A stretch of DNA of 12,759 bases from the NCBI GenBank assembly GCA_009926525.1, contig RFOR01000008.1:1-12759 (forward strand), given 5' to 3'. Positions 271-4,724 of the stretch are shown here, one piece after another; the stretch's first letter is position 1, and each line of letters opens with the position of its first letter. A program made the translations under genes and the position numbers. A model generated the notes under the pieces. It was not told the origin of the DNA, searched no databases, and saw only the letters and a program-made list of their open reading frames with translations. The DNA comes from Methylophilaceae bacterium (lineage in GTDB: Bacteria > Pseudomonadota > Gammaproteobacteria > Burkholderiales > Methylophilaceae).

Positions 271-303
271 ATGTTGGCATACAGGTTGCTTATCTCAATA
301 TAA
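271..303 (+). CDS. 10-codon upstream reading frame overlapping the ntrB start
   Basis: An ATG at 271 opens a 10-residue frame (MLAYRLLISI) whose TAA stop (301-303) shares its last base with the ntrB ATG (303-305), giving TAATG. A purine-rich AGAGGGGG (256-263) lies seven bases before the ATG and is a good ribosome binding site, whereas ntrB has none of its own. This suggests translational coupling by termination and reinitiation. The peptide resembles nothing I recognise and is probably not functional as a protein. It can only be translated from transcripts starting upstream of 271. Confidence 0.4.
   Translation: MLAYRLLISI
275..290 (+). promoter_or_regulatory. Predicted sigma-54 (-24/-12) promoter for ntrBC
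   Basis: TGGCAT (275-280), five spacer bases and TTGCT (286-290) match the RpoN consensus TGGCAY-N5-TTGCW. The invariant GG (276-277) and GC (288-289) have exactly the required spacing. The expected transcription start is near 301, only two bases before the ntrB ATG at 303, so the mRNA would be almost leaderless. That is unusual and is the main argument against it. The NtrC-like repeat upstream is the main argument for it. Confidence 0.5.
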
Positions 304-1418
304 TGGATCCAAAAATACCCTCTTCATTTGCAGGACTTGAGCATCTCGCGACAGCCGTGATTTTGCTTAACAACACGCGCCATGTGGTTTACGCCAATCC
401 TGGCGCAGAAGTCTTGTTTGCATTCAGCGCTAAACAAATTAGTGGCTTACCAATTGCACAAGTATTTCCCGGCTGTGAAATTCTGCATTCAGCAGTTGAG
501 AATGCGATTGGCTCCGACAGCCCATTCCGCGAACACGAATTTGCCATCACTACATTGCGCCAGCATGCGTTAGCCGTGACTTGCACGGTCACTCCTGTAG
601 AGCAAGCCAATGTTTCAGTGGTACTTGAGTTCCAACAAATGGATCAACAATTGCGCATGGCACGCGAAGAACGGATGCTGGTGCAACAACAAGCCAATGC
701 AGAACTACTTCGCAACCTAGCCCATGAAATTCGCAACCCGCTCGGAGGATTACGCGGCGCTGCACAGTTGCTTGAGCATGAATTACCGCAAGCAAGCTTG
801 CGCGAATACACGCAAGTCATCATTAAGGAAGCTGATAGACTGCAGTTATTGATGGACAGATTATTGGTACCTCATCGGGTCCCAAAGTATGAGCCGACCA
901 ATATTCATGAAGTATTAGAGCGCGTTCGTAGCTTGTTACTTGCAGAGTCCCCCTCTGGTTTTTCAGAAGACGCATTCAAAATTATCGTGCAGCGAGATTA
1001 CGATACCAGTTTGCCTGAAATCATTGGTGACAGAGAAAAGCTAATTCAAGCTGTGCTCAACATTGCACGGAATGCCGTGCAAGCTATGCAAGCCAGAGGT
1101 CAAAAAGATGGAAAAATTACCTTGCGCACGCGAGCAGAACGCCAAGTCACGCTAGCGAAAAAACGTTACCGCGTCGCGATTAAATTACAAATTATCGACA
1201 ACGGCCCAGGCATCCCTGCTGGCATCCGTGATCGCATTTTCTTCCCCTTAGTCTCGGGACGAGAAGGCGGCTCAGGATTGGGTCTTACTCTCGCACAAAC
1301 TTTTATTACGCAGCATCACGGCATGATTGAATGCGAAAGCGCACCGGGTCATACCTGCTTTACAATTTTGCTGCCGATTGAAAGCTCTGTGATGGTCGGT
1401 CATATCATTAAGCAATAA
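303..1418 (+). CDS. ntrB: Nitrogen regulation sensor histidine kinase/phosphatase NtrB
   Basis: Cytoplasmic bifunctional kinase/phosphatase of the NtrB (NRII, GlnL) family, 371 residues against about 350 in E. coli. An N-terminal PAS domain (about 12-110, with VVYANPGAE) leads into a short coiled linker and the H-box HEIRNPLGGL, where H141 is the autophosphorylated histidine. The ATPase domain shows the N-box around N253/N257, the G1 box DNGPGIP (299-305), FFPLVSGR and the G2 box GGSGLGL (322-328). There is no membrane segment, as expected for NtrB. In this family PII protein controls the switch between phosphorylating and dephosphorylating NtrC. ATG 303 is the only start codon in this frame before an upstream stop at 255, and the PAS domain begins straight after it. 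ntrC follows after 28 bases, so the two are co-transcribed. Confidence 0.95.
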   Translation: MDPKIPSSFAGLEHLATAVILLNNTRHVVYANPGAEVLFAFSAKQISGLPIAQVFPGCEILHSAVENAIGSDSPFREHEFAITTLRQHALAVTCTVTPVEQANVSVVLEFQQMDQQLRMAREERMLVQQQANAELLRNLAHEIRNPLGGLRGAAQLLEHELPQASLREYTQVIIKEADRLQLLMDRLLVPHRVPKYEPTNIHEVLERVRSLLLAESPSGFSEDAFKIIVQRDYDTSLPEIIGDREKLIQAVLNIARNAVQAMQARGQKDGKITLRTRAERQVTLAKKRYRVAIKLQIIDNGPGIPAGIRDRIFFPLVSGREGGSGLGLTLAQTFITQHHGMIECESAPGHTCFTILLPIESSVMVGHIIKQ

Positions 1419-1446: not shown

Positions 1447-2835
1447 ATGAAACCAATTTGGATTATAGACGACGACAAATCAATCCGCTGGGTGTTTGAA
1501 AAAGCATTGGCACGCACTGAAATGGAGTTCAAAACTTTTGCTTCAACGCCTGAAGCGTTAAAGGCGCTTGATAATGAAACCCCACAAGTGATTGTGAGCG
1601 ACATTCGCATGCCAAACGGTTCAGGCTTAGACTTTTTACAAGTCATTAAACAACGTTTGCCTGACGTGCCGGTTATCATCATGACGGCCTATTCTGATTT
1701 GGAAAGCGCAGTCGCAGCATTTCAAGGCGGTGCATTTGAGTACTTAGCAAAACCGTTCGACGTGGATCAAGCAATTGACGTGATCCGCCGAGCGGTAGAT
1801 GAAAGTCAGCATACAGCACCTGAAGCACCTATCGCTGAAGAAACACCGGAAATCATAGGGCAAGCACCAGCCATGCAAGAGGTTTTTCGTGCGATTGGTC
1901 GATTGAGTCGCTCACATGCAACCGTGCTTATCAATGGTGAATCAGGAACCGGTAAAGAGTTGGTTGCAAGCGCCTTACATCGCCATAGCCCAAGGTCAGA
2001 TAAGCCATTTATTGCGATCAATACTGCGGCGATTCCAAAAGATTTATTAGAGTCAGAATTATTTGGTCATGAACGTGGCGCTTTTACTGGTGCGCAAGCC
2101 ACAAGGCGCGGACGCTTTGAGCAAGCCGATGGCGGCACTTTATTTTTGGATGAAATTGGCGATATGCCATCAGACCTCCAAACCCGCCTACTACGTGTGC
2201 TCTGCGATGGTCAGTTCTATCGCGTGGGCGGTCATCAACCGGTTAAAGTGAACGTGCGGATTATTGCCGCAACCCATCAGGATTTAGAAGAGCGCGTTAA
2301 GCAGGGTCTATTTCGTGAAGACTTATTTCATCGCCTCAATGTTATTCGTCTGCGTTTGCCTGCCCTTCGTGAACGTCCAGAAGATGTGCCCTTGTTAGTG
2401 AAACATTTCTTACTTCATAGTGCGAATGAATTGGGTGTTGATCCTAAACAGCCGACACCAGTAGCGCTTAAATATTTGAGTAGCATGAGCTGGAGCGGTA
2501 ACGTCCGCCAACTTGAGAATGTGTGTCATTGGCTTACGGTGATGGCACCTGGTCAAAATATCGACGTTGCGGATTTACCGCCCGAACTCAAAGAAGACTC
2601 AGCAAAGCCGCTTAATGCAGCATCCTGGCAAGAGGCCCTTGCCGCTGAAATAATGAACGCCCTTAACCGTGGCGAACAAAATATTCTGGAATCGCGTGCA
2701 AATGAATTTGAAAAAATTCTGATTACTAAAGCCCTGCAACATACAAGTGGCCGCCGCATTGAAGCGGCAACCCAGCTTGGGATGGGGCGTAATACGCTCA
2801 CACGTAAAATCCAAGAGCTCAATATAGATGAGTAG
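1447..2835 (+). CDS. ntrC: Nitrogen regulation response regulator NtrC, sigma-54 activator
   Basis: A 462-residue sigma-54-dependent activator (NRI, GlnG), close to the 469 residues of E. coli. The receiver domain carries the acidic pair D8-D10, phosphoacceptor D52 (SDIRMP), T80 and K102 (AKPFD). The AAA+ domain has Walker A GESGTGKE (164-171), the sigma-54 contact loop GAFTGA (211-216) and Walker [10 protein letters not shown] (231-239). A Fis-type helix-turn-helix lies at about 436-458 ([20 protein letters not shown]). CAAGG at 1436-1440 is the ribosome binding site. When phosphorylated by NtrB, the protein activates nitrogen-limitation genes from RpoN promoters. It probably acts on the operator at 174-190 as well, which would close an autoregulatory loop. 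Confidence 0.97.
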
Positions 2836-2840
2836 TAATC

Positions 2841-2870
2841 GATGCCTAATGATTTTCATTAGGCATCTTT
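2841..2870 (+). terminator. Terminator after ntrBC
   Basis: A perfect 12-bp stem, GATGCCTAATGA (2841-2852) and TCATTAGGCATC (2856-2867), closes a three-base loop and is followed by TTTAAT. The T run is short, but the stem is strong and begins five bases after the ntrC stop. It separates ntrBC from pqqA. Confidence 0.8.
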
Positions 2871-2969
2871 AATGAGTACGGGTAGTGCTATCTTTTGTGA
2901 GGAGCGTATTATTCATTCACGCGCTGAGTCACTGTTGACGAAGCAAAAAATAACATTAGGAGAATTACT

Positions 2970-3041
2970 ATGTGGACTAAACCAGTAGCTACTGAAATGC
3001 GTTTTGGCTTTGAAGTTACTATGTACGTAATGAACAAGTAA
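2970..3041 (+). CDS. pqqA: PQQ precursor peptide PqqA (orphan copy)
   Basis: A 23-codon gene for the ribosomally made precursor of pyrroloquinoline quinone. The peptide starts MWTKP, continues with EMRFGFEVTMY and ends MNK. E15 and Y19, in the E-x-x-x-Y spacing, are the two residues that PqqE cross-links and from which PQQ is built. Length and sequence fit PqqA of Klebsiella and methylotrophs (22-29 residues). AGGAGA (2958-2963), seven bases before the ATG, is a strong ribosome binding site. Terminators on both sides (2841-2870 and 3056-3084) make it a single-gene transcript. pqqB, C, D and E are not nearby and would have to be encoded elsewhere. A weak extended -10 (TGCTATCTT, 2886-2894) is the only promoter hint. 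In methylotrophs PQQ serves periplasmic methanol dehydrogenases. Confidence 0.93.
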   Translation: MWTKPVATEMRFGFEVTMYVMNK

Positions 3042-3055
3042 TTTTCAAAGATTCT

Positions 3056-3084
3056 AAAAAAGGAGCTTAACAGCTCCTTTTTTT
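3056..3084. terminator. Bidirectional terminator between pqqA and mltA
   Basis: GGAGCT (3062-3067) and AGCTCC (3072-3077) pair around TAAC. Six A's come before the stem and seven T's after it, so it has a U tract on either strand. It ends pqqA (stop at 3041) on the plus strand and the thiSG-apaG-mltA operon (stop at 3109) on the minus strand. Confidence 0.9.
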
Positions 3085-3108: not shown

Positions 3109-4341
3109 TTATTTAGGCAGCGGAAAATCTTTTGGTAACAACACCCAAATCTTCCCTTGTTGTTTCATCGACCCGGCAGACTTGCCAGCAGCGTCACCCG
3201 CACCCCAAAAGAAATCTGCCCTAACCCCACCTTTAATTGCACCGCCAGTATCCTGCGCCATCATCAATCGGTTTAATGGCTTATTCGAATTAGGTAAATT
3301 AGTGGATAAGAAAATAGGCGCGCCAAGCGGAACAAATCGTGGATCAATTGCTACTACACGCTCAGACAATATTGGCGCACCCAGTGCCCCAATAGGGCCT
3401 GGTAAACCAGGTGGCAATTCACGGAAAAAGACATAGCTAGGGTTTGCATTAAGCAGTTCACGCAACCTATTTAGATTACTCCGCGCCCAATCCTTAATTC
3501 CTTGCATTGAAGCTTTATCAGCAGTCAGCTCGCCTTTTTCAATTAATAAGCGGCCAATCGATTGATAGGCCTGACCATTCTGATCTGCATAACCCACATG
3601 CATTTTTTCACCATTATCAAGATGCACCATGCCAGAGCCTTGAATTTGCAAGAAGAACAAATCAATCTGGTCATCGACCCAAACAAACTCACGTCCTTGC
3701 AGCGGTGAGTTTTCAGCCTCGATCTCACCACGGTTGTAATAAGGAATTAACTTCGTACCCACCACACGACCACGTACGCGTTTATTCGCAAGCTCGGGGA
3801 ACAAGCTAGCTAATTCAACAGTAATTAAATCATCAGGACGGGTGTATAAAGGAAAACGAAATTTATCAGTTTTAATTCGACTGCCTTTAATCACTGGCTC
3901 GTAATAACCAGTAATCATGCCAGTATTTGAACCATCCAAATTAGTTGTTCGATAAACAACAAAGTTGTTTTTAAAGTAATCAAGAATGCTTGCTTGTGAT
4001 GGGCTTTCTAATTTGTCAGCCTCCTTACAAACGGCTTGCCATGCTGGCTTTACTTTTAATGAAGCACAGCCTAGCTTCCATGCTGGCCAGGCTTTAGTCA
4101 CATCATCCTTGGTAATCGCCTCCAATTCCTGCCAATCCGCAGGCTTTAGCAAACTATAATCCAGCACTTTGACTGGCTCTGGTTTAACCTCTCCTGGTTT
4201 AGATGTTGGAGCAGGTTGAACCGGACATGCACAGGTCGGAGCTGCTGGAGGCGTTGGCTTTACTTGTAGCTTTTCGCAGGCGCTTAAAGCCAGCAATGTT
4301 ACTAACACACATGAAAGCTGAAAAATATTGGTTGGTCGCAT
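3109..4341 (-). CDS. mltA: Membrane-bound lytic murein transglycosylase A (MltA)
   Basis: Lipoprotein enzyme of about 410 residues that cleaves the glycan strands of peptidoglycan, leaving 1,6-anhydromuramyl ends, at the inner face of the outer membrane. The N-terminus is a lipoprotein signal peptide with lipobox LSAC (Cys22), followed by a Pro/Lys-rich linker with CACP. The MltA barrel domain (about 120-300) contains MITGYYEP and DLFFLQIQGSG. The C-terminal 3D-type domain has AQDTGGAIKG and RADFFWG, carrying the conserved aspartates D364 and D376. The ATG at 4341 shares one base with the apaG stop (TGATG), which indicates translational coupling. A TTG at 4344 directly before it is an alternative start and is better spaced from AGGG at 4355-4352; it would add one residue. 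Last gene of the thiS-thiG-apaG-mltA operon. Confidence 0.94.
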   Translation of the reverse strand: MRPTNIFQLSCVLVTLLALSACEKLQVKPTPPAAPTCACPVQPAPTSKPGEVKPEPVKVLDYSLLKPADWQELEAITKDDVTKAWPAWKLGCASLKVKPAWQAVCKEADKLESPSQASILDYFKNNFVVYRTTNLDGSNTGMITGYYEPVIKGSRIKTDKFRFPLYTRPDDLITVELASLFPELANKRVRGRVVGTKLIPYYNRGEIEAENSPLQGREFVWVDDQIDLFFLQIQGSGMVHLDNGEKMHVGYADQNGQAYQSIGRLLIEKGELTADKASMQGIKDWARSNLNRLRELLNANPSYVFFRELPPGLPGPIGALGAPILSERVVAIDPRFVPLGAPIFLSTNLPNSNKPLNRLMMAQDTGGAIKGGVRADFFWGAGDAAGKSAGSMKQQGKIWVLLPKDFPLPK

Positions 4342-4724
4342 CAATGTAAAACCCTAGGCATCGTTAAGGTAAAAGTAGGAATAGCCACTTCAAACTGCGT
4401 ACCATCCACCGCCGTAAATTGATAAGACCCATGCATGGTGCCAACTGCCGTATTGAGCACCGTGCCGCTGACGTATTCAAAAGAAGCTGCGTTCTGAAGT
4501 AAAGGCTGCTCGCCTACCACCCCTAAACCACGGACCTCTTGCACTCTCTTTTCAGCATCAGTAATCACCCAATGACGGCTAATTAATTGTGCAGCGACAG
4601 TACCCGTATTGGTAATAGTGATGTGATAAGAAAAAGCATAACGACCCGCTTGAAGATCAGACTGGTCAGGTAAAAACTCTGTTTTTACCGTTACCGAACA
4701 TTCATATCGTTTATCAGCAGTCAT
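4341..4724 (-). CDS. apaG: ApaG family protein (Co2+/Mg2+ efflux-associated)
   Basis: A 127-residue single-domain protein of the ApaG/DUF525 family; E. coli ApaG has 125 residues. It is a beta-sandwich fold with the family signatures YHITITNTG, RHWVITD, the glycine-rich GLGVVGEQP and GTMHGSYQF. Genetic links to cobalt/magnesium resistance gave the family its name, but the biochemical role is not settled. The chosen ATG at 4724 has AGG five bases upstream (4732-4730), inside the thiG stop region. A TTG at 4727 just before it would add one residue. It lies 6 bases after thiG and overlaps mltA by one base, so it is co-transcribed with both. Confidence 0.92.
   Translation of the reverse strand: MTADKRYECSVTVKTEFLPDQSDLQAGRYAFSYHITITNTGTVAAQLISRHWVITDAEKRVQEVRGLGVVGEQPLLQNAASFEYVSGTVLNTAVGTMHGSYQFTAVDGTQFEVAIPTFTLTMPRVLH

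Follow-up and report, generated by a model that had tools for sequence, protein, structure and literature searches.

What appears to be one and the same DNA switch precedes nearly all of the pqqA copies that we examined, and in the sampled relatives a two-component regulator goes with pqqA. This finding looks new. From sequence comparison we consider it fairly likely that a NarL/FixJ-type response regulator and a UhpB/MoxY-like histidine kinase act through this palindromic box and drive a dispersed pqqA family, which feeds one PqqBCDE set. The analysis concerned a small pqqA gene in a stretch of 12,759 nucleotides from a Methylophilaceae bacterium, called the window below.

The pqqA gene of the window and its genomic site

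The following features were identified in the window.

303..1418, + strand: ntrB (NF008293)
1447..2835, + strand: ntrC (TIGR01818), the 5' neighbour of pqqA at this site across the genus
2846..2862, strand not given: candidate palindromic pqqA box CTAATGATTTTCATTAG, 17/17 to the consensus CTMATGAWWWTCATKAG; the upstream terminator of the initial annotation
2869..2875, + strand: third half-site TTAATGA, 6 nt 3' of the box
2907..2912, + strand: -10-like element TATTAT; its spacing to the box, about 60 nt, varies little
2958..2962, + strand: ribosome binding site AGGAG, 7 nt 5' of the ATG, conserved at the same site in genus relatives
2970..3041, + strand: pqqA, 23 codons, MWTKPVATEMRFGFEVTMYVMNK
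3056..3083, + strand: intrinsic terminator AAAAAAGGAGCUUAACAGCUCCUUUUUU, -14.5 kcal/mol, z -3.1; relatives keep the stem with changes
3109..4344, - strand: mltA-type lytic transglycosylase (PF03562, PF06725), convergent neighbour

The initial annotation had described a canonical, solitary and self-contained PqqA precursor, and this description was borne out. The gene is real: its 23 codons, the E-x-x-x-Y core (E15, Y19) and the ribosome binding site are all in place, and it passed both PF08042 (38 bits, cut-off 21.1) and TIGR02107 (36.3 bits, cut-off 20). The PF08042 search gave matches in none of the 14 control genomes. It is plausible, as the initial annotation suggested, that so small a gene escapes gene callers. 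The remaining pathway lies elsewhere in the genome. This genome (G000) is a MAG of 822 kb in 202 contigs and is 77% complete. The profile search detected one pqqA and one pqqE over the cut-off in it; pqqC and pqqD were also over the cut-off, while the 3' part of pqqB was found at a contig start with 148 bits, below the cut-off of 245. The contig with pqqE begins within pqqB and has the order pqqB-C-D-E, therefore any pqqA located 5' of pqqB would be cut off in this assembly. The window gene had been placed far from pqqBCDE, which holds in so far as the two are on separate contigs (C170 vs C175).

The suggestion that this gene might be the only precursor did not find support. We observed 3-6 pqqA genes in each of the nine other genus genomes, with one copy directly 5' of pqqB in 9/9 (the pqqB of L071 was verified). 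Such a claim cannot be made for the window genome, since the MAG is incomplete and its pqqCDE contig starts inside pqqB. According to the accessible part of Beck et al. 2014 (PMC4109929), Methylophilaceae carry 3-12 pqqA and usually a single set of the remaining pqq genes. Given these numbers for the family and the genus, the window pqqA is an ordinary solitary copy for Methylophilaceae and no strange orphan. Several MAGs have contigs whose end lies no more than a few hundred bases from pqqA (G004:C16, G007:C23/C78/C157, G018:C48 and G021:C6). Near-identical pqqA copies may break the assembly, in which case the pqqA counts of MAGs would be too low.

One PqqA peptide is consumed per PQQ made, so several separate transcription units would raise the peptide dose. 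Methanol dehydrogenase is a plausible beneficiary of the extra PqqA. In Methylovorus sp. MP688, which has five pqqA copies, PqqA availability is described as rate-determining (Ge et al. 2015, as cited in the accessible text of PMC11317620).

The order ntrC-pqqA-mltA proved to be conserved. Of ten genus genomes searched, eight, the own genome among them, gave an ntrC match at E<=1e-150, and in all eight pqqA was located 3' of ntrC; G012, from another genus, has the ntrC-pqqA arrangement too. At a contig start of G007 (L093) there is a truncated pqqA with an mltA-like gene after it. At the 3' end of mltA, G021, G022 and G024 have a boxed pqqA that ntrC does not adjoin. For this reason the ntrC neighbour looks incidental, in agreement with the initial remark that the proximity of the nitrogen operon may be chance, and nitrogen control via the ntrC neighbourhood was dropped as an explanation. 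The terminator at 3056-3083 is probably common to pqqA and the convergent mltA.

A palindromic box upstream of pqqA

The pqqA gene had been described as lying between two terminators. The downstream one was confirmed. The upstream one was not: in the window the palindrome forms a hairpin of -17.7 kcal/mol with a 12-bp stem, yet T occupies only four of the eight bases after the stem, which is followed by TTTAATGA and not by a T-tract. Relatives keep only the 17-bp core, which is common to the other pqqA sites, and do not keep the longer stem. We therefore consider that 2846-2862 is better read as a putative regulatory box, CTMATGAWWWTCATKAG, found before nearly all pqqA copies examined. Transcription would start near 2919. 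A promoter/terminator pattern scan returned no terminator at either place and no promoter at the box; since it missed even the clear downstream terminator, its result carries no weight for the upstream one.

Alignment of the sites revealed one upstream palindrome at every site type. Its 11-bp core, ATGAAAATCAT, was picked after aligning the genus with five loci of G012, G021, G022 and G024. Among the matches listed, at least 10/11 core positions were present within 200 nt of 47 of the 60 ORFs of the first set and of 63 of 90 further pqqA ORFs, none of them from the genus; the same was true for 3.4% of random 200-nt stretches from the same loci. The 17-position consensus, which was derived partly from the same data that it scored, reached at least 13 in 141 of 149 distinct pqqA upstream regions among the matches listed (vs 2.5% of 20,000 random segments), and at least 14 in 139 of them (vs 0.4%). 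As a further control, we scored 102 other start sites of the genus loci that are preceded by a ribosome binding site; over a longer upstream stretch (220 nt), 3.9% of them reached 14. The 149 regions correspond to 150 ORFs less L108, which has only 13 nt of upstream sequence. The pqqA copies counted are the matches listed, among which those of G016, G030, G034, G035 and others are partly missing and L090, L093 and L171 have no whole ORF. The presence of a shared box is strongly supported by these comparisons.

The box starts 102-169 nt before the ATG (median 128). The -10-like element stands at near-constant spacing from it and the intervening sequence is close to random, which indicates that selection maintains the box and that it is not simply carried along when pqqA is copied. 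Solitary pqqA copies mostly have a further half-site, TTMATGA; in the copies before pqqB the second element is different. Three of the eight regions without the box (L107, L109, L117) are second copies of tandem pairs behind a single upstream box, where two peptides may be produced from one promoter. In two more, L009 and L226, the core match lies beyond the 180-nt limit. The remaining misses are L156, L172 and L004 (G039).

Given the stem and its free energy, one element could do both jobs, or the palindrome could serve solely as the intrinsic terminator of ntrBC, with pqqA an ordinary, constitutive, solitary gene. We find the latter very improbable. The same element precedes nearly all examined pqqA genes at unrelated sites, at a near-fixed distance to the -10 element, and occurs also where the upstream gene points away (L071, L084, L089, L106); moreover, there is no T-tract after the stem and the outer stem pairs are not kept. 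Still less credible is that the window copy is decaying or a spare without a role. At the same site, seven orthologues of the genus are almost identical to it: 0-1 codon differs synonymously and one residue is replaced (A6V), V6 being the residue of the window copy and occurring in none of the seven. However, position 6 is variable among the PqqA of relatives, and E15, Y19, the ribosome binding site, the box and the terminator are all intact.

We also analysed where else the box occurs. In G006, which is one contig, TMATGAWWWTCATKAG was found exactly at four places, all of them pqqA; the fifth pqqA has one mismatch, and three further one-mismatch places lie outside pqqA. The looser pattern TNATGAWWWTCATNAG gave 35 places in the ten genus genomes (strands collapsed by hand), namely 26 at pqqA, one before the PqqU-like gene of G007 and eight others, while the reversed-pattern control gave 3 matches. 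A promoter model, R1, was derived from 76 promoters of this type, and in each genome the best 150 candidates were scored. Within these candidates, R1 gave 58 matches at E<=1e-4 in 22 genomes, 57 of them at pqqA and one before pqqB. The 57 comprise 56 at listed pqqA (one being the reverse reading of an already counted palindrome) and an unlisted pqqA of G030; the match before pqqB is in G028, where no pqqA was seen. R1 missed 13 of the 79 listed pqqA, and six matches with E from 5e-4 to 9e-3 were not at listed pqqA. One of these six weak matches (L284:1501-1553, G054, E 5e-4) precedes a gene read as rubrerythrin, which would suit an iron/peroxide regulator.

Outside pqqA, exact sites were limited to two in the ten genomes scanned, one before pqqB (G028) and one in G015. 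The latter (L250:2046) has no pqqA near; the gene that begins about 155 nt downstream of it is of unknown function. Sites within ORFs were treated as chance. Boxes with 15-16/17 were present before the gene of a PqqU-like TonB receptor in G007, G008, G009 and G028 (NF041535 was the best family, below its cut-off).

L227:4486-4602, L253, L254 and L252: candidate boxes before the PqqU-like receptor gene; the one in L254 is divergent from a SoxYZ-like carrier

In G009 the gene divergent from the boxed receptor encodes the quinoprotein-associated SoxYZ-like carrier TIGR04557. The PqqU-like receptor of G006 had a box score of only 13. The xoxF gene of G006 showed no box, and co-regulation of pqqA with methanol dehydrogenase therefore finds no support. 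Nor did control of xoxF/mxaF by the box: among 16 non-pqqA sites fetched from the larger set, a PQQ dehydrogenase gene was close to just one, a site with one mismatch between the L262 gene and the next, in G028.

A scan of IMG/VR for pqqA codons gave at least 120 viral stretches (L426-L545). Among the matches listed, 115 viral pqqA had at least 170 nt upstream; the box reached at least 14/17 in 37 of them and stayed below 14 in 78, while 1.9% of 786 other start sites on the same contigs reached 14. At least 15/17 was reached in 11/115 among the matches listed, vs 0.13% of the other start sites. A perfect box was seen at L439:4676-4691, on a viral contig with T4-like genes by reading. The PqqA encoded on viral contig L527 is exactly the window peptide, V6 included, which occurs in none of the seven same-site bacterial orthologues.

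A two-component system that accompanies pqqA

G054 has two pqqA genes less than 5 kb apart, and just 5' of one of them it encodes a kinase together with a LuxR/NarL-type response regulator. This regulator had matches of at least 61% identity (E<=3e-83) in 37 genomes, including the query's own; the next matches had at most 50%. It was present in 37 of 42 genomes with pqqA and in none of the 19 without pqqA. The five pqqA genomes without the regulator were the incomplete MAGs G000, G002, G031 and G036 (75-81% complete) and G039, whose pqqA is also without the box. In the window's own MAG, 77% complete, the search detected no regulator/kinase pair; the regulator was present in eight of the nine other genus genomes, and we infer that the window's organism has the pair. 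Methylophilaceae (family f1) account for 33 of the 37 regulator genomes and four other families of the order for one each, so the co-occurrence does not represent 37 independent events.

A kinase homologue adjoins the regulator in 30/30 loci examined; in L297 the ORF filter dropped the regulator ORF itself (overlapping frame). The regulator lies directly 5' of pqqA on the same strand in G059 and G054, and in G052 the kinase is divergent to pqqA. The kinases contain HAMP, HisKA_3 and HATPase_c and show a weak match to the LapD_MoxY_N sensor. This match was over its 25-bit cut-off in three of the 12 kinases scanned (L304, L316, L321) and below it in seven; for L324 it was unlisted, as it was for L407 among the matches listed (to E 1e-5). 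This domain content suggests the MoxYX/MxaYX kind. The likely recognition helix of the regulator is invariant in nine aligned regulators. A protein search with the regulator gave, among the matches listed, only near-identical proteins, and the named ones were mostly UvrY.

The genome_contigs scan covered the best 80 of 556 regulator loci. Among these 80, 19 loci with a regulator of 64-70% identity had titles other than Methylophilaceae, and 13 of the 19 hold 19 pqqA genes. The box reached at least 15/17 within 250 nt in 18 of those 19 pqqA (best 80 of 556 loci), and the last one (L408) has a perfect box at about 260 nt. Three loci of Panacagrimonas and Solimonas have perfect boxes and no recognised pqqA.

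L415:2181-2197, L417:2479-2495 and L423:2586-2602: perfect boxes without a recognised pqqA at regulator loci

Neither box nor pqqA was seen in L403, L413 and L424. The other 61 of the best 80 loci had no recognised pqqA. L415 contains a PqqE-like ORF by reading. L407:700-6200 and L419:2000-5630 each show a row of an alpha/beta hydrolase (read as prolyl aminopeptidase-like), kinase, regulator and boxed pqqA, and the row of L407 has tonB too. Trimming of the PqqA product is a possible role of this hydrolase.

None of the 143 genomes of a class sample gave the regulator at E<=1e-60 (at most 21 candidates scored per genome, in a search without a positive control). Twenty genomes of this sample besides G000 carry pqqA. 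We fetched 20 pqqA regions from 17 genomes and scored 18 from 15; none of the 18 reached 15/17, and one reached 14, at -336. In summary, the assignment of this candidate two-component system to the pqqA box is well supported by comparative genomics.

Proposed regulation and comparison with known systems

We propose that the window gene belongs to a dispersed family of solitary pqqA genes, all of which would feed a single PqqBCDE enzyme set. The units would behave as one regulon, each with the palindromic box CTMATGAWWWTCATKAG. The box and, in most solitary copies, the half-site would be centred near -66 and -48 from the putative start. Both lie 5' of a -10 element of the sigma-70 type, and a -35 element is not evident. 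The putative NarL/FixJ-type response regulator, paired with the UhpB/MoxY-like histidine kinase, would bind the box and activate pqqA when PQQ is needed.

Two other regulators of the box have to be considered. The core ATGAWAATCAT resembles the Fur box, as we take its consensus to be, and a Fur-type operator would make pqqA iron-responsive. The boxes at TonB receptor genes, the weak R1 match before the rubrerythrin-like gene of G054 and the one-mismatch sites with GATAATCAT elsewhere, one of them inside an ORF of G006, would fit such an operator. We regard it as quite improbable, since the conserved flanks CT and AG are unlike the presumed Fur consensus, exact sites are nearly confined to pqqA, and box and response regulator are absent together in the class sample. 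It is also conceivable, if unlikely, that a different activator binds the box and that the two-component system merely co-occurs with PQQ biosynthesis. Other methanol and alcohol regulators, namely MxaB, MxbDM and AgmR, are described in the accessible parts of PMC5018670 and PMC12997753, and our tie between regulator and box is drawn from sequences. Nevertheless, kinase, regulator, box and pqqA are physically linked outside Methylophilaceae, and in the class sample box and regulator are jointly absent.

A wider reading may be offered, which we hold tentatively and with less than even confidence. A single MoxYX-like system would act as the master switch for PQQ supply, both in Methylophilaceae and in some related lineages. 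It would sense PQQ demand and drive, through one box, the unlinked pqqA genes, pqqBCDE and in some genomes the PqqU-like receptor, and phages with pqqA, which partly keep the box, would plug into this host switch. The shared operator and the candidate regulator make it directly testable why there are many 23-codon copies and how the scattered copies are controlled. They also offer a lever on PQQ production and help to locate the tiny pqqA genes. If the reading is true, cofactor supply can be regulated apart from methanol dehydrogenase.

Systems of the MoxYX/MxaYX kind have been reported for methanol dehydrogenase control (accessible parts of PMC5018670 and PMC6908837). The present pair resembles MoxYX/MxaYX of Paracoccus and MxaY of Methylomicrobium buryatense, to which we likened it by domains, in the HAMP, HisKA_3 and HATPase_c domains and the weak LapD_MoxY_N match of the kinase and in the LuxR-type regulator. 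The targets given for those systems in the accessible text of PMC5018670 are mxaF/xoxF and not pqqA, whereas the present pair is linked to pqqA in distant genomes. In the open papers that our literature search reached, as far as their texts were accessible, no report was found of a pqqA box or its regulator, nor one that links a pair of this kind to such a box.

The copy pattern is the same as that described for the multiple pqqA of Methylophilaceae (PMC4109929) and of strain MP688, but a shared box or regulator is not mentioned in the accessible parts of those sources. The orphan pqqA2 and pqqA3 of Methylorubrum extorquens are likewise solitary and away from the operon, and they change with the lanthanide source (PMC11317620, accessible part). 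By its description in the accessible part of PMC12997753, AgmR/ErbR (PedR1) of Pseudomonas is likewise a LuxR-type regulator, which there promotes the pqq genes and thus PQQ biosynthesis, and the ped cluster of Pseudomonas has a quinoprotein-associated SoxYZ-like carrier too. The AgmR system, as described there, concerns one pqq operon, whereas the system proposed here would control many solitary genes.
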